64,000 nt of DNA, taken from Hyphomicrobiales bacterium. Its GTDB lineage: Bacteria > Pseudomonadota > Alphaproteobacteria > Rhizobiales > Beijerinckiaceae. The translations under genes and the position numbers were made by a program. The notes under the pieces are model-generated. The model was given only the letters and a program-made list of their open reading frames with translations, had not been told where the DNA came from and did no database searches. Below are positions 26,532 through 51,794 of this stretch, one piece after another. The number at the start of each line of letters is the position of its first letter. Position 1 is the first letter of the stretch. The DNA is taken from the NCBI GenBank assembly GCA_019247795.1, contig JAFBAK010000140.1, positions 1 to 64,000 on the forward strand. The letters are read 5' to 3'.

Positions 26532-26713
26532 GCAGCCGGGGCGCTAGGTGAAGCTGGGTGCGCAAGACTTGCATTCGGGTGGATTTCCGGGCGGAAATAT
26601 GTCAGTTGTTGTCAATTCTTGCGGCGAAATCCGCTCGATGATCGGCGACATCCTCTATTGCGGGCCTTTTTACACGCCCGCGCGTTTCAATACTGACCAT
26701 GAGGGGTGAAGGG

Positions 26714-27637: not shown

Positions 27638-27657
27638 GCGCGGCAATCAACAGGGCT

Positions 27658-29454: not shown

Positions 29455-29460
29455 CTCGGC

Positions 29461-34403: not shown

Positions 34404-35590
34404 GCGCGCTCCGCCTTTTTGGCCGGGGCCTGGAATCGGTCTTTCCAATAGCCGCCGCGCCCCCGCCAGTGCTGCAGGGCCGAATCCACGGTGAATGCCG
34501 AATATAGAGCCGCGATGGCGGGTAGCGCCAGCGCGGACCAGGCGGAGCGGCCATATAGGCGAAGTGTCGGAGCGAAGCAGACAACCATAAGCATCCAGGC
34601 GATCGCGCCATCGAGCTGTGCCACACCACGGGCAAAAAGGGTGAACAGCGGCGGCAGCAGATAGGTCGTGATCATGCCGATGAGGGTGCCTGCGAGCCGG
34701 ACCGGCGAGTAGCGCAGTTGCGCGTAAGCCGAGCGCGCGACCATTCGTCTGATGTCGCCCAGCGCCGGATAGCGACGAAGGCTGCGGGCCTGCTGACTGA
34801 GTCCGAGCCAGATCGGACCCTGCCGCTTCATCAGCGATCCGAGCGCACAGTCGTCGATCAGCGCGCCGCGCACGGCTTCCAGGCCGCCGGCACGCTTCAA
34901 GGCCTCGCGCCTCGCGAGCATGCACCCGCCCGCCGCGGCGGCCGTGGCCTGTCTTGCATCATTGACCCAAGCGAATGGATAGAGTTTTTGAAAAAAGAAG
35001 ATGAAAGCGGGAATAAGCCAGTTCTCCGCCGCGCTTTCGCAGTTGAGCTTCACCATCAGCGAGGTCAGGACCCTGCGCTTCGCGCAGGCGATGGCGAGGA
35101 GGCGGCGGAGCGTTCGCGGCGAGAATACAATATCGGCATCGCTGAACAGGACGAATTCGGGTGGTTCATCCTTGTTTTCCAAAATCGAGAGCCCCTGCTG
35201 CATCGCCCAAAGCTTTCCGGTCCAGCCCGGCGGCAGATTCCCTCCCGCAACTACAACGACGCGCTGGTCAGCACGCTGCGCCAAAGCCGCGTCGCGTGCC
35301 TTAACGGCAGTGTCGTCCGTGCTTTGGTCGTCGACAATGACGATGCTGAGAGCACCAGGATAGTCTTGCCGCAGGAGCGAACTAACGCTTTGTGCGATCG
35401 ACTCCGCCTCGTTGCGCGCCGGTATCACAGCCGCAATCCTGGGCCAGCCCCCATCGGGAGGCATTGCGGCTTCCGTGACGCTCATCTCGGCCGTGTCGTC
35501 GCGCTCACGGCAGAGCCAGAACCATCCCCTGCCGAGAAGGAGATACGCCCAGATCGCCAGCGGCACAAAAGAGATCGCAGCAGTGATCAT
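34400..35590 (-). CDS. hpnB: Hopanoid biosynthesis glycosyltransferase HpnB
   Basis: PRIAAVIPARNEAESIAQSVSSLLRQDYPGALSIVIVDDQSTDDTA; multiple C-terminal TM segments. Confidence 0.92.
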   Translation of the reverse strand: MITAAISFVPLAIWAYLLLGRGWFWLCRERDDTAEMSVTEAAMPPDGGWPRIAAVIPARNEAESIAQSVSSLLRQDYPGALSIVIVDDQSTDDTAVKARDAALAQRADQRVVVVAGGNLPPGWTGKLWAMQQGLSILENKDEPPEFVLFSDADIVFSPRTLRRLLAIACAKRRVLTSLMVKLNCESAAENWLIPAFIFFFQKLYPFAWVNDARQATAAAAGGCMLARREALKRAGGLEAVRGALIDDCALGSLMKRQGPIWLGLSQQARSLRRYPALGDIRRMVARSAYAQLRYSPVRLAGTLIGMITTYLLPPLFTLFARGVAQLDGAIAWMLMVVCFAPTLRLYGRSAWSALALPAIAALYSAFTVDSALQHWRGRGGYWKDRFQAPAKKAERA

Positions 35591-36603
35591 CTCAGATAGC
35601 CGTGCAGGCGAAACCAGGCCAGAGCATCGCTCAGGCCCTCGCGGTAGGATCTTGACGTGTATCCGAGCTCGCGTCGCGCCTTGGCATCGTCGAAGAACAT
35701 CTTGTAGCGGGCCATGCGCAGGCCGTCGATCGTGACGAAGGGCTCGCGGCCGCTGAACTTGGCGAAGAGCCCCGCCGCATAGGCTACGGGATAGATCACA
35801 GGGCGAGGGATGCGCAGCCTAGGAGGGCGACGGCCAACGATAAGGGCGATTTCGGCCAGCATGTCGGCCAGCAGAATGTTGTCGCCGCCCAGGATGTAGC
35901 GCTCACCGATTCGGCCATGCCGGAGGGCGGCAACATGGCCGGCCGCAACGTCGTCGACGTGCACGAGATTGAGGCCGGTGTCCACGAATCCAGGCATGCG
36001 CCCGCAGGCCGCTTCGATGATGATGCGGCCCGTGGGCGTCGGCCTGACGTCGCGCGGGCCGATCGGCGTCGACGGGTTGACGATGACGGCTGCAAGCCCC
36101 TCGCTCCGTACCATTTTTTCCACGAGGCGCTCGGCCACGACCTTGCTGCGCTTATATGCGCCGATCGCGTCCTCCTCCGAGAGCGGATCGCTCTCAGCCG
36201 CGAGCTTGCCGTCGCCGAGCTTCAAGGTCGCGACGCTGCTCGTGTAGACGATGCGCTCAACGCCTGAGCGAAGGGCCTCTTCCATAATCAGCCGGGTCCC
36301 CTCGACATTCGTGCGCCTGATCTCATCGGGATCGCGCGCCCACAAGCGATAGTCGGCCGCTGCGTGAAACAGGAAGCGCACGCCCTTCAGCGCCGCCGCC
36401 AAAGACGAGCGGTCGTGCAGATCGCCTTCGCAGATGCTGTCCTCCCGCGCGAGATTGACGCGGGGACTCGAGGGGCGCACGAGAACGCGCACGCGATAGC
36501 CCTGCGCCCGCAAGGCGGCCGTGATGGCCGATCCGACGAAGCCGCTGGCGCCCGTGACGAGCACCTGCGATGCCTCATGCGCGCTCCGGGGGCTCGCTCC
36601 CAC
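35587..36603 (-). CDS. hpnA: Hopanoid-associated sugar epimerase HpnA
   Basis: VLVTGASGFVGSAITAALRAQGYRVRVLVRPSS; GTG start proposed at 36603 (VGASPRSAHEASQ). Confidence 0.92.
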   Translation of the reverse strand: MGASPRSAHEASQVLVTGASGFVGSAITAALRAQGYRVRVLVRPSSPRVNLAREDSICEGDLHDRSSLAAALKGVRFLFHAAADYRLWARDPDEIRRTNVEGTRLIMEEALRSGVERIVYTSSVATLKLGDGKLAAESDPLSEEDAIGAYKRSKVVAERLVEKMVRSEGLAAVIVNPSTPIGPRDVRPTPTGRIIIEAACGRMPGFVDTGLNLVHVDDVAAGHVAALRHGRIGERYILGGDNILLADMLAEIALIVGRRPPRLRIPRPVIYPVAYAAGLFAKFSGREPFVTIDGLRMARYKMFFDDAKARRELGYTSRSYREGLSDALAWFRLHGYLR

Positions 36604-36619
36604 GGCGCGTCGCGGAAGT

Positions 36620-37255
36620 TCAGCCTCCGAGCAAGCTCTCCGTTCGCTCGCGAAGCCGCTTGATGAGGGCATCGGCGCCGCCCGAGGCGATGATCGACGC
36701 AAATTCGTCCCGTCGTGTCGCAAGATCGCTGATCGTGCCGTTGAGATAGACGTCGATCACGCGCCCGCCGCGCACCAAGTAGTTGATGGTCACGGTCCGG
36801 CCGCCCGCTTGAACGAGCTTCGTCTTCACGAGGTCTCCCCCGCCTCGCGGTTCAGGGCTTGTTTGGGGATCGACCACGAAGCTCTCCCCGGAATAATCGC
36901 TCACCTGGCTCGCATAGTCGGCGATGATGAAGCGCGCGAATGCCTCGCGGACCGCCGCCTGTTGGGCCCCCGAGAAGCTTGACCATGCCGGTCCCACGGC
37001 GAGCCGCGTCATCGTCGCGAGATCGAAGGCCGAGGAGATTGCGGGCGTGAAGCGGCGGTCACGCTCGCGCACGCTGAGCCGACCGGCTTGTTGGATCGTA
37101 GGGAGCAGCTGCTGATAATAGGATTGGATATGTCTTGCGGCGGGGCTCGCCGTCTGCGACTGCGCCGGGAGCGGCGCGAATAACAACAAGGCAAGAAGCA
37201 TTTTCGCCGAAACCAAGGCGGCTTTCATGCTCGGTTTGATGTGTTTCACTTTCAT
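36620..37255 (-). CDS. hpnM: Hopanoid-associated MlaC/Ttg2D-like protein HpnM
   Basis: Signal peptide; FAFARFIIADYASQVSDYSGESFVVDP-type MlaC fold region; upstream of hpnA and divergent to hpnN. Confidence 0.88.
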   Translation of the reverse strand: MKVKHIKPSMKAALVSAKMLLALLLFAPLPAQSQTASPAARHIQSYYQQLLPTIQQAGRLSVRERDRRFTPAISSAFDLATMTRLAVGPAWSSFSGAQQAAVREAFARFIIADYASQVSDYSGESFVVDPQTSPEPRGGGDLVKTKLVQAGGRTVTINYLVRGGRVIDVYLNGTISDLATRRDEFASIIASGGADALIKRLRERTESLLGG

Positions 37256-37402: not shown

Positions 37403-40072
37403 TTGACCGAATTGCGGCGCGACGCAATAGAGGCGCTTCCATCACTCGAGATCCACCGCGATGCTGTCGTGACGATTACCGCAGCTACCTTCCTCGTGCG
37501 ACTTTCCAGCCGTTACGCATGGCTCGCGATCCTTTGTTTTCTCGGCCTGACGGTCCTTTGTGCCGGCTGGTTCGTCCATCATTTCGCGATAACCACCGAC
37601 AGCAGCAAGCTCCTCTCGAAGGATCTTCCATGGCGACAACAGGAGATCAAGCTCGATCGAGCCTTCCCGCAACGTACCGACCAGATCGTCGCAGTGATCG
37701 ACGCGTCGACACCGGAAGGCGCCGACGAGGCAGCCGACGCGCTCGTGAACGAGCTCTCAGCGCGCCATAACCTGATCCGCAGCGTGGCGCGTCCGGATGG
37801 CGGCGAGTTCTTCGCCAGGAACGGCATTCTCTTTCAGACGACGGCCGAGGTGCGCCGCGATGCCGCAGATCTCATTGCTGCCGAGCCGTTTCTCGGCACT
37901 CTTGCAGCCGATCCGACATTGCGGGGGGTACTGCGCACATTGTCCCAGTCGATCGAGGGCGTGCGCCTGGGAAGGTCGAAATTTCAGGACCTGCAGGTGC
38001 CCGTCACCGCAATTGCCGACGCGCTTGAGCGCCTCGAGGAGGGGAAGGATCCGGCTTTCTCCTGGCGAAAGCTCATCACCGGGAGGGCTCCGGAAATCTC
38101 GGATCTGCGACGCTTCGTCAATATCCAGCCCGTTCTCGACTATGACGACCTTCAGCCTGGCGGGAAGGCGACGCGAGCCATCCGTGATGCCATCGCGAAG
38201 CTTGGGCTGACACCCGCCGCCGGCACGACGGTGCGCCTCACGGGGGCGATTGCCCTCTCGGACGAGGAGTTCGGCACCATCGCCGAAGGTGCCGAGCTCA
38301 ACAGCATCGTGACCCTGCTCGTCGTGGTTTTGCTGCTTTGGCTTGCGTTGAAGCAGCTGCGCATCGTGCTCGCGGTTCTGCTTACACTCGTCGTGGGTCT
38401 CGTCATCACCGCGAGCGCCGGGCTGTGGATGGTCGGCGCGCTCAATCTCATCTCGGTCGCCTTCGCCGTCCTGTTCGTGGGCCTTGGCGTTGATTTCGGC
38501 ATTCAGTTCAGTGTCAGATATCGCGCCGAGCGGCTGAAATTGCCCGATTTCCATGAGGCGCTTCTCGCGACGGCGCGCATGATCGCAACGCCGCTTCTGC
38601 TTGCCGCCGCCTCGATCGCGGCGGCCTTCTACTCTTTCCTGCCGACCGCTTATCGAGGGCTTTCCGAGCTTGGCCTGATCGCTGGAACCGGGATGATGAT
38701 CGCCTTTATCACGACGGTGACGCTTCTTCCCGCGCTGCTGACGGTGCTGCGACCGCATGGCGAAAAAGAGCCGATCGGTTACGCGGGGCTGGCTCCACTC
38801 GACAGCTTTCTGGAGAGACGGCGCAATCTGGTGGTCGGAACGACGCTCACGGCGACGATTTTCGCGTTGCCTTTGCTCGCGGGGCTGCGCTTTGATTTCA
38901 ACCCGCTTGATCTTCGCTCACCGAGCACGGAGTCCGTTTCGACAGTGCTCGACCTGTTGCGAGACCCCAAGACCAGCCCGAATACCATCGACATCCTGGA
39001 GAGCGATCTGCCAAAGGCCGAAGAGGTCGCAGCAAATCTTCGGCGGCTGCCCGAGGTCGCCCAAGCGCTCACGCTGCAAAGCTTCGTTCCGGGAGAGCAA
39101 GAGGAGAAGCTCGAAATCATCGAGGATGCAAACTTCTTTCTCCAGAACACGCTCAATCCTATCGAAGTCGAAGCTCCGCCCTCGCAGGACGATACGCTCC
39201 AATCGATCGAGACGACGGCCCGGGACCTGCAAACGATGGCGGGCGAGGCCGACACTCCCGCGGCCCGCCAGGCACGGCGTCTCGCGGACCTGCTCTTCGA
39301 TCTGGCCAAGTCTTCGCCCGACGCACGCGCGAAAGCTGAAGCCGCTCTAACAAAGCCACTCATGACCACGCTGCGGGAAGTGCGCGAGCTTCTCTCCGCC
39401 GAGCCGGTGAGCATCGACACGCTGCCGGCCGACTTGAAGAGAGATTGGATCGCCGAGGACGGCGAGGCGAGAATCGAGGTCGCGCCCAGCGGCAACGGCA
39501 ATGACAACGCGACGCTGCATCGTTTCGTCGAAGCGGTGCGCAAGATCGCGCCCGAGGCGTCGGGATCACCGGTCTTCATCATCGAAGCCGCAGCGACGAT
39601 CGTGCGCGCGTTTCTCGAAGCTGGCGCCTTCTCGGTCATTTCGATCGCGCTGATTCTCTACGTCGCCTTGCGACGCTGGACCCATGTCGCGCTGACGCTC
39701 GTGCCGCTTCTCGTCGCCGTCGTGGTCACGCTCGAGCTCTGCGTCGCGATAGGGCTCGAGTTCAACTTCGCCAACATCATCGCGCTGCCTCTCCTTCTCG
39801 GGGTCGGCGTCGCCTTCAAGATCTACTACGTGTTGGCGTGGCGTAACGGAGAGACGAATTTCCTGCAATCGAGCCTGACCCGCGCCGTCTTCTTCAGTGC
39901 CTGCGCCACGGCCACGGCCTTCGGCAGCCTCTGGTTCTCGCATCATCCGGGCACATCGAGCATGGGCAAGTTGATGGCGCTGTCCCTCATCACGACGCTG
40001 TCGGCCGCCGTCATCTTCCAGCCCGCACTGCTCGCCACCCAACGAAAAGGCGAGCGAAAAGCCGCAGAATAG
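37403..40072 (+). CDS. hpnN: Hopanoid transporter HpnN (RND/MMPL family)
   Basis: 889 aa with two sets of TM segments (VAFAVLFVGLGVDFGIQFSVRYR; IIALPLLLGVGVAFKIYYVLAWRNGE); exact start uncertain. Confidence 0.93.
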   Translation: MTELRRDAIEALPSLEIHRDAVVTITAATFLVRLSSRYAWLAILCFLGLTVLCAGWFVHHFAITTDSSKLLSKDLPWRQQEIKLDRAFPQRTDQIVAVIDASTPEGADEAADALVNELSARHNLIRSVARPDGGEFFARNGILFQTTAEVRRDAADLIAAEPFLGTLAADPTLRGVLRTLSQSIEGVRLGRSKFQDLQVPVTAIADALERLEEGKDPAFSWRKLITGRAPEISDLRRFVNIQPVLDYDDLQPGGKATRAIRDAIAKLGLTPAAGTTVRLTGAIALSDEEFGTIAEGAELNSIVTLLVVVLLLWLALKQLRIVLAVLLTLVVGLVITASAGLWMVGALNLISVAFAVLFVGLGVDFGIQFSVRYRAERLKLPDFHEALLATARMIATPLLLAAASIAAAFYSFLPTAYRGLSELGLIAGTGMMIAFITTVTLLPALLTVLRPHGEKEPIGYAGLAPLDSFLERRRNLVVGTTLTATIFALPLLAGLRFDFNPLDLRSPSTESVSTVLDLLRDPKTSPNTIDILESDLPKAEEVAANLRRLPEVAQALTLQSFVPGEQEEKLEIIEDANFFLQNTLNPIEVEAPPSQDDTLQSIETTARDLQTMAGEADTPAARQARRLADLLFDLAKSSPDARAKAEAALTKPLMTTLREVRELLSAEPVSIDTLPADLKRDWIAEDGEARIEVAPSGNGNDNATLHRFVEAVRKIAPEASGSPVFIIEAAATIVRAFLEAGAFSVISIALILYVALRRWTHVALTLVPLLVAVVVTLELCVAIGLEFNFANIIALPLLLGVGVAFKIYYVLAWRNGETNFLQSSLTRAVFFSACATATAFGSLWFSHHPGTSSMGKLMALSLITTLSAAVIFQPALLATQRKGERKAAE

Positions 40073-40226
40073 CCGGCCAAAAACTGCGGCAAACTGCGGC
40101 AAAAAAGTGACAGTCAGGGTCGGCAGCGCCTGCTAGGCTGGCACGTTTCCTCAATTGATTCGAGCGCGCCGCCGCTCGTTGCTCAGCTTACGAATTTTCA
40201 TTCCTCCCAAGCGGAGATTTTGTTTC

Positions 40227-41021
40227 GTGGAGATAACAAAAAGTCGCTCGCGGCGGCCTCGCGGCGCCAAAGCTTGGGTTGCGCTATCGATCATGTTGTT
40301 CGCGCCGGCTTTGCTCTCGGGCTGTGCAAGCGTCCAACGGGACGCGTCGCTCCCCATCAACGATCCCAATGAGAAATCCAATCGCGCCGTATTCGCGGCG
40401 AACCAGGCGGTCCTCCATCCTTTGTCTCAAGCGGTCAAGACCGTCACGCCCGGCCCCATCCACGATCGACTGCACGATTTGAATGCGAACCTGCAAGAGC
40501 CGCGTGTTTTTGCAAACGACGTTCTCCAAGGGCGCTTTCAAGCGGCAATCACGACATTCGGACGTTTCATCACGAATTCATCGATCGGCATCGGTGGTCT
40601 TTTCGATGTGGCCACGCTTGGGGGATTGCCACGCCAAAGCGGCGACTTCGGCCAGACCTTGTTCGTCTGGGGCGTCAGCGAAGGCCCTTATATGCTGCTG
40701 CCCTACTTTGGTCCGTCGACGGCGCGCGACGCCTTTGGCACGATCGTCGATACGGTCGGCGATCCCGTCGGCTGGTTCTTAGGCCAACGTTTCGGCTGGG
40801 GGGCGACGGTCGGCACCGGCTTGTTGGACGCCTCCGTTCGGCTATCGGAGCTCAAGGAAGCCGAGGACGTATCGATCGATTTTTATGCCTTCCTGCGTTC
40901 CGCCTATTACCAGCAGCGCCGCGCGGATCTGCGTGAGGCGCTAGGCCTGCCGCCGGTCGTCGAATCGCCGGCCACCACGCCAGTCCCCCAGGGACGAGCC
41001 AAACACGCGAAATCCCGCTGA
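40227..41021 (+). CDS. mlaA: MlaA/VacJ family lipoprotein
   Basis: Lipobox LLSGC; NDPNEKSNRAVFAANQAV, SSIGIGGLFDVATLGGLPRQSGDFGQTLFVWGVSEGPYMLLPYFGPSTARD; GTG start inferred. Confidence 0.92.
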   Translation: MEITKSRSRRPRGAKAWVALSIMLFAPALLSGCASVQRDASLPINDPNEKSNRAVFAANQAVLHPLSQAVKTVTPGPIHDRLHDLNANLQEPRVFANDVLQGRFQAAITTFGRFITNSSIGIGGLFDVATLGGLPRQSGDFGQTLFVWGVSEGPYMLLPYFGPSTARDAFGTIVDTVGDPVGWFLGQRFGWGATVGTGLLDASVRLSELKEAEDVSIDFYAFLRSAYYQQRRADLREALGLPPVVESPATTPVPQGRAKHAKSR

Positions 41022-41060: not shown

Positions 41061-41840
41061 TTAGACGCGGAAAACGTAACTTTGCGTGCCGTCCCGATCG
41101 ATGTCGGGTGGGAATGACGCGTGCTTGTCCGCATAGTAGCGAGCCCGTTGATCACCGTATTTCGCGAGATTGTAGGTGAGGTAGAGCACGCGCCTTGCCT
41201 GAGCCGTGTAGTTGGGTTTCGAGGCGTGCGGCACGAAGGAATCGAAGAAGATCACGTCGCCGGGCTCGGTTGGAATTGCGCGCAACGGCAAAGCGTCTTC
41301 AGCCATCGGACGCCACTCCTCGCCGAGCAATCCCTCACGGTGATGTCCGGCGGCGATTTCAAGACAGCCATTCTCGATGGTGGTGGGATCGATCGTCACC
41401 ATGGCGGTGACGAAGAGCGGGGCATATCGGGTCCACCCTGCCTGCTGATCCTGATGCAGCTTGAATCCCGGACCACCGGGCATCTTGAAGTTGATCTTCT
41501 CCTTGAACAACAACGCCGGCCCACCCATAAGCCCGCCCACCCAGCGGGGCAGCGCGCCCTTACGGACCAGCCGGTCGAATCCTTCGTGAAATGGACAGAA
41601 ATTCTCGATGCGTTGGACGAGCCGTCGCCCGGGCTCGGTCAAGCTGTCCTCGTGGTAGACCCAGTGGCGCCCCGAGATCTCCGGCGCGGCAGCAAGTTCC
41701 TCGGTCCAGGCGAGAATATCGGCCGTCTCTTCGGCGCTGAAAAAGCCGCGGGTTACGAGAAAACCGTCCGATTCCATGGCGGCTCGTTGCGTCGCGTCGG
41801 GCTCGAATGGCGCAGTATCCTGCATCTTTGGCTTCCTCAT
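41061..41840 (-). CDS. Phytanoyl-CoA dioxygenase (PhyH)-family Fe(II)/2OG oxygenase
   Basis: KLHQDQQAGW (HxD), ENGCLEIAAGHH, GDVIFFDSFVPHASKPNYTAQARRVLYLTYN. Confidence 0.88.
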   Translation of the reverse strand: MRKPKMQDTAPFEPDATQRAAMESDGFLVTRGFFSAEETADILAWTEELAAAPEISGRHWVYHEDSLTEPGRRLVQRIENFCPFHEGFDRLVRKGALPRWVGGLMGGPALLFKEKINFKMPGGPGFKLHQDQQAGWTRYAPLFVTAMVTIDPTTIENGCLEIAAGHHREGLLGEEWRPMAEDALPLRAIPTEPGDVIFFDSFVPHASKPNYTAQARRVLYLTYNLAKYGDQRARYYADKHASFPPDIDRDGTQSYVFRV

Positions 41841-42607
41841 TCTCCGAGCAGCGGCAGAAGCGCGCGCGCCTTGATCACGTCCTGCGGGAAGTCGATCTCG
41901 GTCCAGGGCAAGCCACTGATGTCCTCGAAGCCGAAGCGGTCCGGCGGACTTGCGAGAATCATGTCCCGGATGGGCTCCTCGTATTCGAGGCTCGTCAGCC
42001 CCGATTCCACATAGGCTTGCGCACGCTTGGCCAGCTCCGCCGCCGCATCTTGCGTGAAGCGAAAGAACCCGACGGACTCGCCGTGCCATTCATGGGGTAT
42101 TTTTGGCCGTTTGTGAAAATCGACGATGTGGCCATTCGCCACGCATAGTTTGACGGGCTCGTCGCCCGGTTCGATGTCGCGATCAAGCAGAAGGCAGTTC
42201 GGCTTATCGGCACGAAGCAAGCGGGCCAGCAGCCGCACGTCATAGAGCACATCGGCATCCATCAGGATCACCGGCGTGCCGCTTTCCAGGATTTCCCGGC
42301 CCGTGAGCAAGGAAACGATGCTGCCCTTTTCGAAATCAGGATTGATGATGAGCCGCGCCGATGCACCTCCATTGCCATCCAGTTCCTTGCGAATCGCGTC
42401 CTCGCGATAGCCGACCACAATGCTGATGTCGGTCACCTGCGCCGCGCGCAGACTCGCGAGATGCCGCTCGAGCAAGCTGCGCCCACCGAAGCGCAAGAGA
42501 GCCTTGGGCAATTCTTCCCCATTCGGCCTGCCGTCATGCAGCCGCACACCCGCGCCCGCCGCGAGGATCAAGGCGCGTGGGGCCGCTTGACCGGAATGGC
42601 TCGACAC
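41837..42607 (-). CDS. Nucleotidyltransferase (MobA/LicC/IPCT-like NTP transferase)
   Basis: RALILAAGAGVRLHDG...LPKALLRFGGRSLLERHLASLR; PVILMDADVLYD; GTG start inferred; overlaps PhyH by 4 nt. Confidence 0.87.
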   Translation of the reverse strand: MSSHSGQAAPRALILAAGAGVRLHDGRPNGEELPKALLRFGGRSLLERHLASLRAAQVTDISIVVGYREDAIRKELDGNGGASARLIINPDFEKGSIVSLLTGREILESGTPVILMDADVLYDVRLLARLLRADKPNCLLLDRDIEPGDEPVKLCVANGHIVDFHKRPKIPHEWHGESVGFFRFTQDAAAELAKRAQAYVESGLTSLEYEEPIRDMILASPPDRFGFEDISGLPWTEIDFPQDVIKARALLPLLGE

Positions 42608-42663
42608 GGGATCGTCTTCCCGTGTTCGACAGACGATGTCAACGCGTGGCCGCATCGCGCGAT

Positions 42664-43704
42664 ATGATGACAACCGCGGGAAAGTGCTCAGGAAGACGGA
42701 TGAAGCTCGGTGCACTGCTCGGAGTTGTCGTGCTTGCTGCCTTGGTCGCCTGGATGCTGGCGAATGAAGGGGCGGTGTGGCGCATACTCGATCTCGTCCG
42801 ACAAGCCGGTTGGATCGGCCTGACCGCAATCGTGCTCTTCCATGTCGTCCAGCTCGTATTCTCCGCTGAAGGCTGGCGCGTCCTCCTCGATCCGGCGACG
42901 AAACGGCCGAGCCTTTTCTTCTACATGGTAGCACGCTGGATCCGCGAGGCAGTCAACAATCTTTTGCCCGTTGCGCAGATCGGCGGCGAGTTCGTCGGCG
43001 CCCGTCTGCTGAACCGACAAGGTGCGGAGCTACGAGCATCGATTGCGAGCGCAATCGCGGACCTCACCGTTGAATTGGTTACGCAGATCGCGTTCACCCT
43101 CGTCGGGCTCGCGGCCTTGCTGCTCACCGCAGGCAATGGGCCGACGGCCCGCCTGGTCGCCATCCTCCTCTTTGCCGCCGCGGCGGTTGCCGCCGCATTC
43201 GTCGCCGCGCAGTGGATGGGCCTTGCGCATCTGATCGAGATCTCGGTGATGAGAATCGGCCGCATGATCGGCTGGAAGGAGTCTGGCGAGGAGCCGGCTC
43301 TCCACGCGGCGCTCATGGAGATCTACGGCGCGAAGCGGCGGCTCCTGAGGGCGGCACTCAACCATCTGATTTCCTGGCTCCTCGGAAGTGTCGAGGTGTG
43401 GTTGGCGTTCCGCCTTATCGGGAGCGACGTCGAGCTTGCCACCGCGCTCGTGATCGAGAGTCTCGGCCAGGCATTCAAGGCGGTCGGTTTTGCCGTTCCG
43501 GCCGCCCTCGGCGTGCAGGAGGGAGGTTACGTCATCGTCTGCGGGCTTTACGGCCTGTCGCCGGAAGTCGCGATCGCGCTGTCGTTGATCAAGCGCCTGC
43601 GCGAGATCGCGCTCGGACTGCCGGCCCTCGCGGCGTGGCAATGGCTCGAATCGAGGCCCGGGCGAGAAAAGGCGTCATTTCCATCGTCGAGAGGCGCCTC
43701 GTGA
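42664..43704 (+). CDS. hpnL: HpnL-type lysylphosphatidylglycerol synthase-like membrane protein
   Basis: Multi-TM; WIREAVNNLLPVAQIGGEFVGARLL, ALVIESLGQAFKAVGFAVPAALGVQEGGYVIVCGLYGLSPEVAIALSLIKRLREI. Confidence 0.82.
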   Translation: MMTTAGKCSGRRMKLGALLGVVVLAALVAWMLANEGAVWRILDLVRQAGWIGLTAIVLFHVVQLVFSAEGWRVLLDPATKRPSLFFYMVARWIREAVNNLLPVAQIGGEFVGARLLNRQGAELRASIASAIADLTVELVTQIAFTLVGLAALLLTAGNGPTARLVAILLFAAAAVAAAFVAAQWMGLAHLIEISVMRIGRMIGWKESGEEPALHAALMEIYGAKRRLLRAALNHLISWLLGSVEVWLAFRLIGSDVELATALVIESLGQAFKAVGFAVPAALGVQEGGYVIVCGLYGLSPEVAIALSLIKRLREIALGLPALAAWQWLESRPGREKASFPSSRGAS

Positions 43705-44303
43705 TCGGTGGTTCCTGGACGCATCTCCTCGTTCGCCAATTGATCAGGCCGCTGCTCGGCACGCCGGTCAAGCCCAACCATCTGACAACCTTGCGTCTCG
43801 TTTCCGGTCTTGCCGCGTGCGCCTGTTTCTCGCTCGGCACTCCTTCCGGAACGGGATGGGGCGGCGCGATCTGGCTGATCTCCGCCCTCCTCGATCGCGC
43901 CGATGGGGAGCTTGCGCGAATAGGCGACATGCGCAGCGAGAGCGGCCATCGTTACGATTACGTTTCGGATGTTCTCGTCAACACGGTTTTTTTTGTCGCC
44001 GTCGGCGTGGGATTGCGCAATTCATGGCTCGGCGCCTGGTCGATACCGCTCGGCTTGCTCGCCGGCGTCGCTCTCTTCTTATGCATGTGGTGGTCGGAAC
44101 TTTTGGAGCGGCAGAGTGAGCCGGACACGCGCGCCTATGGCGGAAAATGGGGTTTTGATCCGGACGACGCGCTGATGCTGATGGCACCCTTCGCTTGGCT
44201 TGGATGGCTCGCGCCGATTCTGGTCGGAGCCGCAGCGGTCGCTCCCTTCGTGGCGGCCGCCACGGGAGTGCGATTGCTGCGGCTGAAAAACGCCAGCGCC
44301 TGA
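43641..44303 (+). CDS. CDP-alcohol phosphatidyltransferase family protein
   Basis: Complete family motif DRADGELARIGDMRSESGHRYDYVSD (DxxDGxxAR-x8-GxxxDxxxD). Confidence 0.9.
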   Translation: MARIEARARKGVISIVERRLVIGGSWTHLLVRQLIRPLLGTPVKPNHLTTLRLVSGLAACACFSLGTPSGTGWGGAIWLISALLDRADGELARIGDMRSESGHRYDYVSDVLVNTVFFVAVGVGLRNSWLGAWSIPLGLLAGVALFLCMWWSELLERQSEPDTRAYGGKWGFDPDDALMLMAPFAWLGWLAPILVGAAAVAPFVAAATGVRLLRLKNASA

Positions 44304-44314
44304 GTGGTCCGGCC

Positions 44315-44917
44315 TTAGATCTTCGTGCCGCGCAAAGGGGAACCGCTTGAACGCAGCGTCCAACGTCCGTCGCATCGCGAAAGCACCGTCACGGTCAGCG
44401 GAGCCACATCGATGCGCCAGAATGAGCGAGCGTGCGCTCCAATCGCGTGGATGATCGCGGCTCGCACGACGGCGGGATGCGTCACTGCGGCAAAGCGGCC
44501 AGGTTCCTCCAGCAGCGTGTTCAACCAGTGAGCCACCCTGGCGAGCACGGCGCAAATCGATTCGCCGTCGTGAGGAGCAGCGCCGGGATCGCTCAGCCAG
44601 TCGCCGATGGCTGCTGGCTCCGCCTCTTGTACTTCGGCCAGTGGACGGCCCGTCCATCGTCCATAGTCGCAGTCTCGCAAAGCCAACTCGATGACCGGCT
44701 CAAGCGCCAAGGCGCGTGCCGTCTCAATCGTGCGCAGCTCGGGACCCGTCCAGGCGCGCCGCAAACGAAGCGCCAGACCGAGCTTCGCCGCTTTGTCACG
44801 CGCGGACGCGTCGATGCTCTCGTCGACAGGAAAGGCTGCCCGGCGCAGAGCGGGCGTCGAGGCATGACTGATCAGTATTACGCTCGTAACCAACGATGTG
44901 TTTTTCTTGGCGCGCAC
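44315..44917 (-). CDS. Histidine phosphatase superfamily-like protein with altered catalytic motif
   Basis: VILISHASTPALRRAAFPVDE (SHAS in place of RHG), AWTGPELRTIETARAL, DYGRWTGRPLAEV, GESICAVLARV, VTHPAVVRAAI. Confidence 0.82.
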   Translation of the reverse strand: MRAKKNTSLVTSVILISHASTPALRRAAFPVDESIDASARDKAAKLGLALRLRRAWTGPELRTIETARALALEPVIELALRDCDYGRWTGRPLAEVQEAEPAAIGDWLSDPGAAPHDGESICAVLARVAHWLNTLLEEPGRFAAVTHPAVVRAAIIHAIGAHARSFWRIDVAPLTVTVLSRCDGRWTLRSSGSPLRGTKI

Positions 44918-44934
44918 TCGTTTGACATGCCTTT

Positions 44935-45075
44935 ATGAAGTACCTAGCCTGAGCTTGTCAGGAGTCGGGAAGCCGGTGCAAGTCCGGCACGGTCGCGCCA
45001 CTGTAATCGTTACGAAACCCAACGAATCGTATCGTCAGTCAGACCCCCTCCGGGCGAGGTGAGCATTAGCGGGAC
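44935..45075 (+). promoter_or_regulatory. Cobalamin riboswitch upstream of cbtBA
   Basis: ggagtcgggaagccggtgcaagtccggcacggtcgcgccactgtaat...gtcagtcagacccc matches the B12-element core and the 3' box. Confidence 0.88.
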
Positions 45076-45097
45076 GCGCTATCCCAAGGAGCATCAC

Positions 45098-45307
45098 ATG
45101 ACCCACGCCGCGCTCGAGCGGGTTGCCGCTCCCACCGCTATTCCGCTCAAGGATCTTGTTCCCTGGGCGATCTTTGGCGGGTTGCTGATGCTGCTCGCGA
45201 TCTATTTCGTGGGTGCCGAGCAGGGGGCAACCTCGATCTTCTCCGGCATGTATGTCCACGAATTCGTTCACGACGGAAGGCACTTGTTGGGGTTCCCCTG
45301 CCATTGA
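45098..45307 (+). CDS. cbtB: Cobalt transporter subunit CbtB
   Basis: Single TM and His-rich C-terminus YVHEFVHDGRHLLGFPCH. Confidence 0.93.
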   Translation: MTHAALERVAAPTAIPLKDLVPWAIFGGLLMLLAIYFVGAEQGATSIFSGMYVHEFVHDGRHLLGFPCH

Positions 45308-45325
45308 TCATCGAGGGCGTTCACA

Positions 45326-46084
45326 ATGGTCAGCCGCCTTCTCGTCCGGGGGATGCTCGTCGGGGTCGTGGCGGGATTGCTTTGTTTCGTTTTCCTGAAA
45401 ACGTTCGGAGAGCCGCAGGTCGATCGCGCCATCGCCTTCGAGACCCAGCTGGATGAAGCCAAAGCAGCCGCTCACAAAGCCATGGGCATGGATATGTCCA
45501 AGGAGGAGCAGCCTGAGCTCGTCAGCCGAGAAATGCAGGCTGGCCTGGGTCTCTTTACGGGCGTGCTCGTCTATAGCACCGCCTTCGGCGGCTTGTTCGC
45601 CCTGGCCTTCGCCTTCGCTTATGGTCGCGCGCCCGAAGCGGCAACGCCTCGAGCTCTCTCGGCGCTCTTGGCGGTCATCGGCTTCGTCGCGATCTATTTG
45701 ATCCCGAATCTGAAATATCCCGCCAATCCGCCGTCGGTCGGTGAGCCCGACACGATCGGTATACGCACGGCTCTCTACTTGACCATGATTGCCGTCTCCA
45801 TCGCCGGCATGATCGCTTCCGTATCACTCAAACGGTTCGTCAGCGGCAGTTGGGGGGCTTGGAACGGGACATTGGCCGCGGTCGGCACATATCTGGTCCT
45901 CATGGTGCTGGCGGGGCTTTTGCTCCCGTCGATCAATGAGGTTCCGGACCAGTTTCCCGCCGTGGTGCTGTGGAATTTTCGCCTCGCCTCCGTAGGCGCT
46001 CAGCTGATCATGTGGGCCGCCCTGGGCGTTCTGTTTGGAGCCCTGACGCAGCGGGCTTCGGCGCGAGGCGCTCTGGTGGGCTGA
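45326..46084 (+). CDS. cbtA: Cobalt transporter subunit CbtA
   Basis: Polytopic membrane protein MVSRLLVRGMLVGVVAGLLCFVFLKTFGEPQVDRAIAFE directly after cbtB. Confidence 0.93.
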   Translation: MVSRLLVRGMLVGVVAGLLCFVFLKTFGEPQVDRAIAFETQLDEAKAAAHKAMGMDMSKEEQPELVSREMQAGLGLFTGVLVYSTAFGGLFALAFAFAYGRAPEAATPRALSALLAVIGFVAIYLIPNLKYPANPPSVGEPDTIGIRTALYLTMIAVSIAGMIASVSLKRFVSGSWGAWNGTLAAVGTYLVLMVLAGLLLPSINEVPDQFPAVVLWNFRLASVGAQLIMWAALGVLFGALTQRASARGALVG

Positions 46085-46126
46085 GGTCCGGACTCCGGTT
46101 CGTCGCGATTTTGCCTGCTCGGCTAG

Positions 46127-47167
46127 TCAATGCCCGGCGCGCCGAGTGTCGTGCTCCGATTGCTCATCATCCACGTCATCCGGCAATGCTTGGCGGTCGA
46201 AGAAGGCGCTCCACGCCGAGAGGGATGGAGCAGGTTCGCCACTGGCGCGCATCTGCCTCAGAGCGACTCGAATGCCGGTCCTGGCAAATTTGGTACTCGG
46301 GAAATCGAATCTTGCCGCATCCAAGCCCCGGCAGACCGCCTGTCTGGCGCGTTCTTTGAGCGCGAACAATTCCGGATCGCCATATTTCGCGAGAAGCGCT
46401 TGGAAACGCCTGTGCAGCCGCTGATCGAAGCACCGCTCGCTTCCGTTCCGTTCCTTGGTGGGATGGGCCGGATAGAGATGCGCGCAAGGGACGAGGCCAG
46501 CGGGGATTGGATGGGTTGCCGCGTGGGTTCGCCCGCTTTGAAGCAGCTTGGGCAGGACATGCGTGTGGGGTCCGTCCGGGCTTTGGCCGCCTGACGCGGG
46601 GATGGGCTGATAGACCTCGACGCGGCCGAGGCGTGTTGCGAACACCCGATGCGGGCCGTGGCTGAGGATTGCAGCGATGGCCGGATTCCCCGGCGCGAAC
46701 AGGCTCCTTTTTTCAGCCGCTCGCAGTGTTTGAATGAGGTCTGCATTCGCCGTTCGGACGCAAATATCGGCCTGCAGGATGCCAAGTCCGAGATCGAAGA
46801 GGATCGCACCGCGATCTTGATCGCGGAGCGCCGCCGTGTCAGGGCCGAGCTCCGTGACAACATGCCGTCCGTGCATGGCGCAGTCGCTCAGGCTCGAGCA
46901 GAGTGCGACCGCGTGGTTCCATTGCGTCGGATTGGCACTCAACGTCTCGTAGGCGACCGGCTGCAGGCCCGCGAAACGTTCAAAGCGGATGCCGCCGAGC
47001 TGGGTTGCAACGCTCAAGGCCGTGCCGTCGACAGCGACCTCGACCGCTTCGTTGGGATCGCGGACGAACTCGGCGATCGCGCCGAAGGTGCCTGCGCTCC
47101 AGCCCGTGCTCGCATCTTGCAGCTCGCGTGCGAGCCAGTTCTTGATGTCGTCAGCCTCGCTCTTCAT
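46127..47167 (-). CDS. Uncharacterised His-rich protein at the end of the btu operon
   Basis: MKSEADDIKNWLARELQDASTGWSAGTFGAIAEF...; GPHTHVLPKLLQSGRTHAATHPIPAGLVPCAHLYPAHP; overlaps the 3' end of the ABC ATPase gene. Confidence 0.75.
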   Translation of the reverse strand: MKSEADDIKNWLARELQDASTGWSAGTFGAIAEFVRDPNEAVEVAVDGTALSVATQLGGIRFERFAGLQPVAYETLSANPTQWNHAVALCSSLSDCAMHGRHVVTELGPDTAALRDQDRGAILFDLGLGILQADICVRTANADLIQTLRAAEKRSLFAPGNPAIAAILSHGPHRVFATRLGRVEVYQPIPASGGQSPDGPHTHVLPKLLQSGRTHAATHPIPAGLVPCAHLYPAHPTKERNGSERCFDQRLHRRFQALLAKYGDPELFALKERARQAVCRGLDAARFDFPSTKFARTGIRVALRQMRASGEPAPSLSAWSAFFDRQALPDDVDDEQSEHDTRRAGH

Positions 47168-47963
47168 CGCCCCGCTCCTCCTCCTTGTCATCCGCTTGCA
47201 GCGTGCGCCACGTCACGAGATACGGCGCGCCATCATGGTGGCCGCGAACCACCTCGACGCCATAGATTTCCGAAATCAGATCATCGCCGAGCGTCGTCGG
47301 CGCTCCATCGAGAACGATGCGGCCCCGGTCGAGGAGCACGATGCGGTCACAGTAGCGCGTCGCGAGCGTCAGATCGTGGAGAACGACGATGACGCCGGCA
47401 CCGCGACTTGCGACGGAGCGCAGCAAATCCATGGCCTGAAGCTGGTGCAGCGGGTCGAGCGCTGCGGTCGGCTCGTCGGCCAGCAGCATCTCGGCCTCGA
47501 CGGCGAGCGCACGGGCGAGCAGGACCCGCATGCGTTCGCCTCCCGACAAGGTGTGGAATATCCGTCCGCGCAAGCGAGCGGTTCTCGTCGCATGAAGCGC
47601 GGCCTCGACGGCCCGCTCGTCACCGGGACTGTCGGCGGCGAAAAGTCGTCGATGCGGCAGGCGCCCGAGCGCGACGAGATGGTCGACGCGAAGCGACCAT
47701 TCAACCCTGCCGTTTTGGGCAAGGTAGGCGATCCGGCGCGCGAACTCTCGGCGAATGAGATCTGTCGAGAGCCTGCCATCGACGTGAAGGGCCCCTCGGT
47801 CAGGCTGGTGAAGGCCGGCAAGTACGCGCAGCAAAGTCGTCTTGCCCGCACCATTCGGGCCGATGAGGCCGACAAGCTCGCCCGGCTCAAACGCGAGCGA
47901 CACGCGATCGAGCACCTGTGCTCCGCCAAGTGAAACGCTGACCTCGTCGGCTGCAATCCTCAT
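47151..47963 (-). CDS. btuD: Cobalamin ABC transporter ATP-binding protein
   Basis: GLIGPNGAGKTTLLRVLAGL Walker A, LSGGERMRVLLARAL signature, LLADEPTAALD. Confidence 0.9.
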   Translation of the reverse strand: MRIAADEVSVSLGGAQVLDRVSLAFEPGELVGLIGPNGAGKTTLLRVLAGLHQPDRGALHVDGRLSTDLIRREFARRIAYLAQNGRVEWSLRVDHLVALGRLPHRRLFAADSPGDERAVEAALHATRTARLRGRIFHTLSGGERMRVLLARALAVEAEMLLADEPTAALDPLHQLQAMDLLRSVASRGAGVIVVLHDLTLATRYCDRIVLLDRGRIVLDGAPTTLGDDLISEIYGVEVVRGHHDGAPYLVTWRTLQADDKEEERGDEERG

Positions 47964-48985
47964 CAGCGTTCGCTCCTGTGGCGATAGACGAGGCTGAAGA
48001 GGAAAGGGGCGCCGATGAGCGCCGTCACGACCCCGAGCTTCAGCTCGGGGTGGATGGGCAGGAGCCGAACCACGATATCGGCGCCGAGCAGCAGCGACGC
48101 ACCCCCAAAACCGCTCACCAGCAGCAGACGCCCTGGCCGGTTTCCCACATAGGGGCGCAGCAGATGCGGCACGACCAGGCCGACGAAACCGATCGTGCCC
48201 GTGACCGCGACAGCGCTTCCGACCGCAAGTGCTGCACCGCCGATGACCTTGAGGCGCAGCTTTTGCAGATCGAAGCCGAGGCTCGCCGCCGTATCTTCGC
48301 CGAGCGTCAGACCGTCGAGCGCCGGTGCGGTCGAGACCAGGAGCGCCCAGCCGATCGCCATGAGCGGCAACACGAGCCAGAGCTGCGGAAGGCTGCGATC
48401 GGCGAGCGATCCCATGAGCCAGAAGATGATCTCGAAAGCCGCATAGGGGTTGGGAGAAAGGTTGAGCGCAAGCGTGGTCAACGCGCCGGCGAAGCTGTTG
48501 ATGGCGATGCCCGCGAGGATCAGGGTGGTCGTGCCGGCACCACGTCCCGCGACGGCGAAGAGCAAGACGGTGGCGAGGATCGCACCGGCAATGCCGCCGA
48601 GCGGCAGCGCGAGCAGAAAGGCGCCAGCGAGCCCTGAGTAGAACACGAGCACGGCGCCGAGCGCGGCTCCCCCCGACACGCCGACGATACCAGGTTCCGC
48701 CAAGGGGTTGCGAAGCAATCCCTGCATCGCGGCTCCGGTGATGCCAAGACTGAAGCCGGCGACGAAACCGAGCGCAGCGCGGGGGACACGCAGTTCGAGC
48801 AGCACCAACGCGGGAAGGCTGTGCGTGCCGCGCAGCGCATCTGACGCAGCAGCCACGATATCGAGCCTGGCATAGCCGATCACCAGGGAGGCGAGCGCCA
48901 TCAGCACGGAGAGCAGCGACAGCCCGAACAGCAATGGGAGAGAGCCCGACCTTCCGGTTGCCACACGTATTGCGTCAGCGCTCAT
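47963..48985 (-). CDS. btuC: Cobalamin ABC transporter permease (FecCD family)
   Basis: GAAMQGLLRNPLAEPGIVGVSGGAALGAV; GFVGLVVPHLLRPYVGNRPGRLL. Confidence 0.9.
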   Translation of the reverse strand: MSADAIRVATGRSGSLPLLFGLSLLSVLMALASLVIGYARLDIVAAASDALRGTHSLPALVLLELRVPRAALGFVAGFSLGITGAAMQGLLRNPLAEPGIVGVSGGAALGAVLVFYSGLAGAFLLALPLGGIAGAILATVLLFAVAGRGAGTTTLILAGIAINSFAGALTTLALNLSPNPYAAFEIIFWLMGSLADRSLPQLWLVLPLMAIGWALLVSTAPALDGLTLGEDTAASLGFDLQKLRLKVIGGAALAVGSAVAVTGTIGFVGLVVPHLLRPYVGNRPGRLLLVSGFGGASLLLGADIVVRLLPIHPELKLGVVTALIGAPFLFSLVYRHRSER

Positions 48986-49848
48986 GAGGGCGGGCGTTCC
49001 GATGAAGGCGCGCGCGTGCGCTCGATGAGGAGTTGGACGGCATCGACGATCGACGGACCGGCGCAGGTCCACAAACGTGACGGCATGTCGAAAAGACGCA
49101 GCTTCTCGGCCAACGCCGTGACGATCGGGTGATGCAGCGCTTGCGTCGCGAGCGAGGGCGCGCTCTCGCTGTCGCCGTTGAGGATCAAGATTTCGGCCTT
49201 CTGCAGTACGACCGCTTCGAGCGGAATTTGGAGATAGTTGTCGATCTCGAGCCGAGCGGCCAGATTGTCGAGGCCCGCGCGTTTCAAAATCTCGTCGATG
49301 AGCGAGCCCCGCCCCACGGTGAAGCCGTTCGGCCGCAGCACGATAGCCTTGAGCGGCGGGCCGGCGACTTGGGCGGCGAGCTGCTCGAGCCTCTCATCCA
49401 TTTCGCGGATCAGCGCTTCGCCCTTCGACTGCTGCCCGAGGGCTCGCGCGATGTCGCGAATGTTCTGGCGAGTCTCGGCGAAGCTGCGCGGCACCCCGAC
49501 CTCGATGACGCGCATTCCCGTCCGCTTCAGCAGCGCGACGGTCGTGCGTGTGGTGAACGCACCCGCGAGGACGAGATCAGGGTCGTAGGAGAGCACCTCC
49601 TCCGCGAGGCCGTGATTGGCCGGGTGGAGTTTGGCTTCGTCCGGCAGGTTGGCGTTGCGCGGATCTTGCGAGAGCCAGCTCACCGAGGCGATCTGTCCCG
49701 GGTCGGCAAGCCGCAGGAGCAACTCGTCCGTGCACATGTTGAGCGAGACGACGCGCTGGGGCCGCACCTCGTCCGCATGTCCGAGCGTCGCGGTCATGAG
49801 AGCGAGGCAAGCCGCGAAGATGAAGGCGACGGCCTTGGCGCATCTCAT
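48982..49848 (-). CDS. btuF: Cobalamin ABC transporter substrate-binding protein
   Basis: RVVSLNMCTDELLLRLADPGQIASVSWLSQDPRNA; signal peptide; under the B12 riboswitch. Confidence 0.88.
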   Translation of the reverse strand: MRCAKAVAFIFAACLALMTATLGHADEVRPQRVVSLNMCTDELLLRLADPGQIASVSWLSQDPRNANLPDEAKLHPANHGLAEEVLSYDPDLVLAGAFTTRTTVALLKRTGMRVIEVGVPRSFAETRQNIRDIARALGQQSKGEALIREMDERLEQLAAQVAGPPLKAIVLRPNGFTVGRGSLIDEILKRAGLDNLAARLEIDNYLQIPLEAVVLQKAEILILNGDSESAPSLATQALHHPIVTALAEKLRLFDMPSRLWTCAGPSIVDAVQLLIERTRAPSSERPPS

Positions 49849-51794
49849 TGGGCAGTCACCTTCACGCCCCCATAAACGCCAATTCCCGGTCGATCGAACC
49901 CGACGGGATCCTGGTAGTGGCGGTTGAGCAGGTTGTCGATGCGCCCGAACACGGTCGTGCGCTCATTCACCTCGTAGTTCGCCGCCAGGTTGACGACCGC
50001 GTAAGGATCGGATTTCAGCCTGGTGATCGTGAAATCGCGGTTGCCGTCAACCCAGCTCCCGACAAAGACGAGCGAGCCCGAGAGCTTGAGCTGCGGCAAA
50101 GCTTGCCAGTTGGCCTGCAAGCTCGCCTTGTTCTTGGGGCGGCGCAAAAGCTCCTGGCGGGCGATGTCGTCCTTGGCGACCGTGAAGGTATAGTCGGCCC
50201 GCAGGCTGATCGTTTCGGTCAGCGCCAGCGTGGCGAAATTCTCAAACCCCCAGGTTGTCGCCCGACCGACGTTGATGAAGGTTGTGAAATCGGCATTGTC
50301 AGTGATGAGGTTGCGGATATCGTTATGAAAATAGGTTGAGCCGAAGCTCAAGATTCCCGCTGCCTGCTCGAAACCGACATCATAGCCCTTGCTTTGCTCG
50401 GGCTTCAGGTTCGGATTGGCGAAGAACCCAAACGCCGGAAAATCCTGGAAGAGCTCGCTCAGGCTCGGAGCCTTGAAGCCGGTGCCGTAGCTTGCTTTGA
50501 ACTTCGTGCCGGTCTCTTCGATGAGGATCGCCGGAGCGATGCGATAAGTGGAGTGACCGCCGAATGAATCATTGATGTCGTGGCGGATGTTCGAGGTGAG
50601 ATAGAGCCAGGTGGCGTAAGAGGATTGCAGCTCGAGATAGCCGGCCTTGTTGGCGTTCGAGGCCACGAATTGTCCGGTGTCCATGCGGTCGTTCTCGGCT
50701 TCGAGCCCGCCGATGAGCTTCTGGCCGGGCAGGAAGGTCCACACGCCGCGCCAATCGGCTTTCACCCGCTCGCCGAGATTGTGGGTCGGAATCGTGCCGC
50801 CGATATCCTCCGGCGAGCCTTGAAAGCGTGACCAGAGATTGGAGTAATCGATCCCGAACGTATTGACGAACACGTCGCCCAAAGGCGCCCAGACCGCCTC
50901 GCCCCGCGTGAAGAACTGGTGGTCGTTCTGGGTGCTCCGAAATGCGTCGGGCACAGCGGGAAAACCGGAATCATTGACCGACAGCAAGGTCGAGGTCGTA
51001 TAGCGCGCAACGCCATTGAGATTGAAGCTGTCGCTGAGATGCGCTCCGAGGCGCGCGGAGTAGGTGTAGTTGTCGTAATAGTAGTCACGGATCGGCCGGC
51101 CCGGCGGCACGAGATCCGGCGGCGTGACCGGCGTATCCGTCGATTTGAGATGCACGATGCTGAAGGCATAATCGACGATCGAGTTCGATCCGCTGAACCC
51201 TGCAGTCTCGTTCAAGGTGCCGAACGAGCCACCCTCGACGCTCGCTGTCGCTTTCGGAGGGCCATCGCCTTTTTTGGTGGTGATCGAAATGACACCACCG
51301 ATCGCATCGGCGCCGTAAAGGCCGCTTTGCGGTCCGCGCAAAACTTCGATGCGCTCGATGTCGCCGGTCGCAAGCTGCCCGAAATCGAAGGCGCCGTTGG
51401 GCGTGCTCGGATCGGTGACATCGATGCCGTCGACCAAGACCTTCACATGGTTCGAGTTGGTTCCGCGTATGAACACCGAGGTGAGGGTGCCCGGGCCGCC
51501 GGTCTGGACCACATTGAGGCCCGGCACGGTGCTCAGCGCATCGGGAACCGTACGTCGCTGCTGATCCTGCAGCTCTTGAGAGGTGATCACCGTGACCGAG
51601 TTGCCGAGCTCGGCGGTGGGCGTGGGGACGCCGGTTGCCGTGACCGAGATGGTGCCGAGATCGGCAGGCGCGCCGGCACTCAGCGTCGTCTGAGCGCGAG
51701 CCGGATGGAATGAGCAAAGCCAGGAGACCGAGCAGGCGAGGAGCGCAAGCGCGCCACGACACCCTCGCCGGTGCGTCGATGTCGAATGTTCCAT
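49845..51794 (-). CDS. btuB: TonB-dependent cobalamin receptor
   Basis: Plug domain VTVITSQELQDQQRRTVPDALSTVPGLNVVQTGGPGTLTSVFIRGTNSNHVKVLVDGIDVTDPS; barrel ending GGVKVTAQ. Confidence 0.92.
   Translation of the reverse strand: MEHSTSTHRRGCRGALALLACSVSWLCSFHPARAQTTLSAGAPADLGTISVTATGVPTPTAELGNSVTVITSQELQDQQRRTVPDALSTVPGLNVVQTGGPGTLTSVFIRGTNSNHVKVLVDGIDVTDPSTPNGAFDFGQLATGDIERIEVLRGPQSGLYGADAIGGVISITTKKGDGPPKATASVEGGSFGTLNETAGFSGSNSIVDYAFSIVHLKSTDTPVTPPDLVPPGRPIRDYYYDNYTYSARLGAHLSDSFNLNGVARYTTSTLLSVNDSGFPAVPDAFRSTQNDHQFFTRGEAVWAPLGDVFVNTFGIDYSNLWSRFQGSPEDIGGTIPTHNLGERVKADWRGVWTFLPGQKLIGGLEAENDRMDTGQFVASNANKAGYLELQSSYATWLYLTSNIRHDINDSFGGHSTYRIAPAILIEETGTKFKASYGTGFKAPSLSELFQDFPAFGFFANPNLKPEQSKGYDVGFEQAAGILSFGSTYFHNDIRNLITDNADFTTFINVGRATTWGFENFATLALTETISLRADYTFTVAKDDIARQELLRRPKNKASLQANWQALPQLKLSGSLVFVGSWVDGNRDFTITRLKSDPYAVVNLAANYEVNERTTVFGRIDNLLNRHYQDPVGFDRPGIGVYGGVKVTAQ

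Follow-up and report, generated by a model that had tools for sequence, protein, structure and literature searches.

The stretch of DNA analyzed here (the window) comprises 64,000 nucleotides of contig JAFBAK010000140.1 from a Hyphomicrobiales bacterium (GCA_019247795.1), and the subject of this study is a block of four genes that borders its hopanoid (hpn) locus. Two genes on the minus strand encode a PhyH-type Fe(II)/2-oxoglutarate oxygenase (PhyH; 41061 to 41840, PF05721), predicted to be an (amino)phosphonate hydroxylase, and a PntC/LicC-like cytidylyltransferase (NTase; 41837 to 42643, PF12804), predicted to activate 2-aminoethylphosphonate (AEP) or a relative with cytidine triphosphate (CTP). 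Two genes on the plus strand encode HpnL (42700 to 43704; TIGR03476 and PF03706), a flippase-like membrane protein of the LPG-synthase TM type, and a CDP-alcohol phosphotransferase (43641 to 44303; PF01066), predicted to transfer a phosphonate (or phosphate) headgroup from a cytidine monophosphate (CMP) ester to a lipid hydroxyl. On comparative sequence evidence, the four genes may activate a phosphonate headgroup and attach it to a lipid, as one half of a pathway associated with hopanoids, a reading on which we are evenly divided.

The layout reported in a preliminary description of this DNA proved exact on re-reading of the sequence, with four open reading frames (ORFs) on these strands, an overlap of 4 nt between the stop codon of the NTase and the ATG of PhyH at 41837-41840 (..gagaATGAgg..), a divergent gap of 56 bp between the NTase GTG at 42643, a start common to the congeners, and the HpnL ATG at 42700, and an overlap of 64 nt between the end of HpnL (43704) and the start of the CDP-alcohol phosphotransferase (43641). 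Its family calls were borne out by Pfam and NCBIfam, and the adjoining hopanoid locus and mlaA were genuine by matches to the same databases. The order hpnN-mlaA-PhyH-NTase<>HpnL-CDP-alcohol phosphotransferase was conserved throughout the genus, in each of its four genomes (G000-G003). The four proteins shared 60-85% identity with those of the three congeners (G001-G003), and the ratio of nonsynonymous to synonymous substitution rates (dN/dS) was about 0.06-0.21 for all four genes and similar for hpnN and mlaA, with synonymous sites near saturation in some congener pairs. The identity, the dN/dS values and the retained order excluded chance ORFs, and the four genes are under purifying selection in the genus. 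The NTase was absent from other genera of the family in a sample of 60 genomes. A scan of the region for sigma-70 promoters and terminators revealed nothing resembling a promoter, and terminator-like sites were not in excess.

Enzymes of the block and their phosphonate relatives

The NTase matched NTP_transf_3 (PF12804) at 1.3e-15. In a profile search of the PDB its best match was PntC (6pd1, 1.5e-22), which was aligned along the whole length (positions 3-245) at an identity of only about 20%, and the second-best solved relative was LicC (1jyk, 2.2e-14). The predicted model had a predicted local distance difference test score (pLDDT) of 87.9, its top Foldseek match was PntC-AEPT (6pd2), and every active-site column checked was conserved. 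PntC is an AEP cytidylyltransferase that prefers AEP over phosphocholine (PMC6697681). By sequence and fold the NTase is thus closest to the PntC-type cytidylyltransferases, and activation of AEP is predicted for it. Elsewhere in the order, other families have NTase relatives of about 25-45% identity (G037, G041, G057, G049, G039), which were set aside owing to their different context. One of them, with 44% identity, overlapped a LicD-like gene (L006/L014 of G037, 94-2228) and represents a further CDP-activated headgroup route within this order.

PhyH matched PF05721 at 7.8e-25. Its best NCBIfam match was the methylphosphonate hydroxylase NF052437, at 179 bits against 31 bits for the next best, although this score misses the equivalog cut-off of 500 bits. 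The HxD...H triad and the following arginine (H127, D129, H203, and R214/R215 in P0001 numbering) were invariant in 25 homologues, and the predicted model was confident, with 2-oxoglutarate hydroxylases as its nearest folds. PhyH is therefore predicted to be a phosphonate hydroxylase, with methylphosphonate hydroxylase as its nearest match. The CDP-alcohol phosphotransferase matched CDP-OH_P_transf (PF01066) at 1e-12 and contained the motif DRADGELAR-x8-GHRYDYVSD, which retains the full DxxDGxxAR-x8-GxxxDxxxD pattern; its D, G, A, and R residues were invariant in 23 homologues.

Scanning of the NTase alignment against 84,980 species genomes yielded 80 loci. In most of them a phosphoenolpyruvate (PEP) mutase (PepM)-NTase fusion, a phosphonopyruvate decarboxylase (Ppd), and a PhnW-like aminotransferase lay near the NTase, HpnL, and the CDP-alcohol phosphotransferase, often with PhyH. 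This set of mutase, decarboxylase, and transaminase is the AEP pathway. The loci with AEP genes spanned Alphaproteobacteria, Gammaproteobacteria, and Cyanobacteria, examples being those of Sphingomonas (L056), Acidisphaera (L023), Roseomonas, Inquilinus, Telmatospirillum, Nostoc (L080), and a gammaproteobacterium (L073). In Acidisphaera the transaminase-decarboxylase-mutase block was located exactly between HpnL and the NTase, where the window has the 56-bp gap.

HpnL of the window scored 277 bits against TIGR03476, over the cut-off of 195.65. In the HpnL tree, whose deep branches were long and unsure, the window copy fell inside a clade of 38 rows comprising HpnLs beside the NTase, the CDP-alcohol phosphotransferase, and PepM (support 100/98), separate from the HpnLs beside hpnIJK. 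The window HpnL thus belongs to the phosphonate-module clade. At least two HpnL genes per genome were observed in G125, G191, G197, G257, G309, G319, G475, G478, and G486, and in several of these one copy shared a contig with hpnI; each paralogue may serve a particular headgroup module. Two records look misnamed or contaminated, as the HpnL of "Mycobacterium sp. KBS0706" (L036) was near-identical to that of Inquilinus limosus and the "Solirubrobacterales" record (L021) was very close to alphaproteobacterial sequences. In a 2025 survey of hopanoids in Alphaproteobacteria, HpnL was assigned no function and no further candidate genes were seen near hpn loci (PMC12583986).

Association with hopanoid makers

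Hopanoids, the sterol-like lipids of bacteria, are also the principal molecular fossils of these organisms. Evenly drawn alphaproteobacterial genomes, 385 in all, were searched for the NTase, which was present in 48 of them from 23 families (E no higher than 1e-60, and a clear gap before the next matches). Squalene-hopene cyclase was found in 47 of these 48 and in 55 of the 337 genomes lacking the NTase (Fisher p 1.7e-30), so that the module was nearly always carried by hopanoid makers. The pattern repeated across families, and in 27 genomes, drawn from 12 families, no more than 25 kb separated the cyclase from the NTase. PEP mutase followed the NTase as well (40/48 vs 4/337), and 41 of the 44 genomes with PEP mutase also possessed the cyclase. 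In the broader set of NTase loci, which takes in cyanobacteria and gammaproteobacteria, the cyclase was over the cut-off in 46 of 50 genomes. Since the cyclase accompanied the NTase in 47/48 genomes, often at close range, a hopanoid acceptor is likely.

The link was also visible in gene order. The hpn genes were interleaved with those of the module, for example in L158, L189, and L073, the last with the order shc-hpnG-PhyH-hpnN-hpnA-HpnL-NTase-PepM-Ppd-PhnW-dxs-hpnH-hpnB within 17 kb. In the cyanobacterial loci L080, L083, L096, and L046, hpnJ- and hpnI-like genes directly preceded the CDP-alcohol phosphotransferase and the NTase, which extends the hopanoid link to another phylum. Within about 10 kb of the NTase, an hpn gene was present in 34 of 47 loci and HpnL in 21.

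In the window, the module is separated from the hopanoid locus (hpnI, hpnJ, hpnK, hpnH, hpnG, shc, hpnE, hpnB, and hpnA; 23110 to 36723) by two plus-strand genes. The locus members were over their NCBIfam cut-offs, except HpnG, which was just below. The first of the two genes, hpnN (37403 to 40072; TIGR03480 and NF052374, both over cut-off), encodes the hopanoid transporter of the resistance-nodulation-division type at the edge of the hpn locus and was a recurrent neighbor of the module in other loci. The second, mlaA (40155 to 41021; PF04333, 1.1e-55), encodes an outer-membrane lipoprotein with a possible role in lipid trafficking; its place beside the module was conserved in the genus and recurred in a few further clusters. 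On the other side, positions 44315-51794 contained a CobC-like phosphatase, small membrane proteins resembling a cobalt transporter pair, a DUF6925 gene, an ABC-type transporter, and then a likely TonB receptor, which is probably a cobalamin uptake region.

Several observations weigh against the phosphonate-hopanoid reading. Because the 48 genomes represent 23 families, the p-value overstates their independence. The CDP-alcohol phosphotransferase and PhyH were found in only 29 and 18 of the 47 loci, respectively, many of them on short contigs. HpnH, which is needed for C35 hopanoids, was present in 40/40 genomes tested with the NTase, and as a discriminator it was discarded, being equally present in 40/40 hopanoid genomes without the NTase (80/80 in all). 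The absence of PEP mutase leaves the window's genus without its own route to AEP. With respect to the substrate, Glu104 and Glu196 of Treponema denticola PntC, near the AEP amine (PMC6697681), mapped to Asp133 and Glu226 of the NTase in the HMMER alignment; the former is LicC-like and the latter PntC-like, so that phosphocholine-type substrates may also be accommodated. Lastly, co-occurrence alone is no proof of a hopanoid acceptor, as a diacylglycerol phosphonolipid restricted to hopanoid makers would produce the same pattern. In that alternative the phosphonate chemistry would be the same, the product would be a phosphonolipid of the Kennedy-pathway style, and the tie to hopanoids would be indirect, through common membrane domains or transport. 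CDP-alcohol phosphotransferases commonly take diacylglycerol as a substrate, and a related cluster of Nostoc and Burkholderia was proposed to make a phosphonolipid (PMC5987646). A diacylglycerol acceptor leaves unexplained the near-restriction of the NTase to genomes with the cyclase and its frequent siting inside hpn loci, and we regard it as a serious though somewhat unlikely alternative. The gene content of the loci had suggested that hpnIJK and the phosphonate module are mutually exclusive headgroup sets; this idea was rejected, because HpnI was over the cut-off in 14/40 hopanoid genomes with the NTase and 12/40 without it.

Absence of PEP mutase in the genus

The lack of a PEP mutase gene noted earlier for the window extended to the whole genome: with the TIGR02320 profile none was found in G000-G003, where the best score was 128 bits against a cut-off of 319.55. 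The assembly of G001 consists of 3 contigs with 100% completeness. A hidden mutase was rejected, since no match came near the cut-off and those scoring best in the congeners carried the isocitrate-lyase-type KRCGH/KKCGH instead of EDKxxxxxNS. A hidden phosphonopyruvate decarboxylase was likewise rejected, the decarboxylase-like matches examined in G000 being split two-subunit thiamine-pyrophosphate enzymes in unrelated loci. The genus must therefore import a phosphonate or use a different substrate. PEP mutase was missing from 8 of the 48 alphaproteobacterial genomes with the NTase. When 34 NTases were placed in a tree, the mutase-less members, several of which come from metagenome assemblies of unknown completeness, were scattered, with five changes, at least four of which were forced by supported branches.

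A different substrate would mean that the mutase-less genus has changed over to a phosphate ester, for instance phosphoethanolamine or phosphocholine, with a LicC-like NTase and with PhyH hydroxylating another position. Besides the absence of the mutase from all four genomes, the rank of LicC among the solved relatives and the LicC-like Asp in place of Glu104 are consistent with this switch. The same residues, however, were present in NTases beside PEP mutase, and no column checked separated the mutase-less members from these. Moreover, hydroxylation at the carbon adjoining the ester oxygen would give an unstable product. We consider such a switch quite unlikely.

That the mutase-less locus is a functionless remnant being lost appears highly improbable for this genus, where nothing was broken, the four genes were open in four species under the same constraint as hpnN and mlaA, and no transaminase, decarboxylase, or mutase relic was present between the NTase and HpnL. 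Decay may be under way in another genus. Comparison of G486 (L191, 6973-7165) with its congener G408 (L189, 5064-7160) revealed a clean 2.1-kb deletion in the hopanoid/phosphonate cluster, which removed the decarboxylase and all of the transaminase except a 26-residue relic; PEP mutase was not found in G486 and its PhyH appeared frameshifted, which suggested that this lineage may be decaying.

Proposed pathway and comparison with known systems

In the proposed phosphonate-hopanoid pathway, the NTase would join CMP from CTP to AEP or a close relative, and PhyH would hydroxylate the phosphonate, probably to 1-hydroxy-AEP, a step that may be optional because many relatives have no PhyH nearby. 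The CDP-alcohol phosphotransferase would then place the phosphonate on a lipid hydroxyl, most likely on the C35 side chain of a bacteriohopanepolyol. HpnL could assist in placing or flipping the product, and HpnN and MlaA may ferry it to the outer membrane. The headgroup is most likely AEP or 1-hydroxy-AEP, because the clusters of relatives hold AEP genes, the NTase is nearest to PntC, and the oxygenase is nearest to a phosphonate hydroxylase. In the window's genus the source would probably be an environmental aminophosphonate and less likely a phosphate ester used instead; salvage is suggested by the missing mutase together with the retained oxygenase, whose action on a phosphate ester makes little chemical sense. 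Gene content, conservation, co-occurrence, and kinship with PntC are what the data show; the substrate, the acceptor, the flippase role of HpnL, and salvage are inferred from them. The preliminary description had put forward a CDP-activated headgroup made by the four genes as one module. The pairing of the NTase with a CDP-alcohol phosphotransferase fits this logic, and many families carry the module, usually with AEP genes alongside, while the precursor that the description had left unnamed is most probably one of the two compounds above; as for the active sites, the PhyH triad was intact and the amine-site residues of the NTase were mixed.

A broader proposal can be offered only tentatively, namely that hopanoids bearing a phosphonate form a class of their own, built by this module across Alphaproteobacteria, some Gammaproteobacteria, and Cyanobacteria, with some lineages, such as the window's genus, salvaging environmental aminophosphonate without PEP mutase. 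If true, it would name the headgroup of many extended hopanoids of Alphaproteobacteria, tie most alphaproteobacterial PEP mutases to membrane lipids, give HpnL a working context, and provide an example of a phosphonate lipid pathway that may be fed by scavenged phosphonate. The full cluster is present in culturable Sphingomonas, Roseomonas, Inquilinus, and Nostoc, which allows a concrete test. To our knowledge, no phosphonate hopanoid has been described so far, and none was reported in the papers searched.

The pathway had been called undescribed, which held in part. Clusters of similar gene content have been annotated already (PMC5987646, PMC8776678), whereas the genome-wide tie of the module to hopanoids and its mutase-less form were not found in the literature searched and appear to be new; the chemistry is predicted. 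The set of hpnIJK, which makes the glucosamine/cyclitol-ether headgroup of bacteriohopanetetrol, is likewise a decorating set of the hpn locus and frequently has an HpnL of its own, but it is sugar-based, and the window carries both sets. LicC, the CTP:phosphocholine cytidylyltransferase, resembles the NTase in fold and reaction type but ranks behind PntC by profile and fold, and lic genes were not noticed in the region examined. PntC of the Pnt phosphonyl-tailoring pathway was defined by Rice et al. (2019), who also established that mutase and NTase are frequently paired (PMC6697681). In the Pnt pathway, too, a LicC-like cytidylyltransferase activates AEP for attachment to a cell-surface molecule, and relatives of the window have a standalone NTase beside the PEP mutase-NTase fusion; the Pnt systems differ in using LicD-type or glycosyl transferases and glycans in place of the CDP-alcohol phosphotransferase, HpnL, PhyH, and a hopanoid locus, and the window's genus has no PEP mutase. 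In Acetobacteraceae, PEP mutase, decarboxylase, and aminotransferase genes lie beside terpenoid genes, and an undiscovered terpene-phosphonate was proposed as the product in one sentence; the passage on these clusters mentions neither the NTase/CDP-alcohol phosphotransferase/HpnL module nor a class-wide tie to squalene-hopene cyclase (PMC8776678). Another close counterpart is the phosphonolipid cluster of Nostoc and Burkholderia described by Gagunashvili and Andresson (Fig. 7 legend), in which a CDP-alcohol phosphatidyltransferase, an OG-Fe(II) oxygenase, an NTP transferase, pepM, ppd, AEPT, and hpnL make up nearly the same gene set; there the mutase is present, and the discussion of that cluster makes no hopanoid link (PMC5987646).

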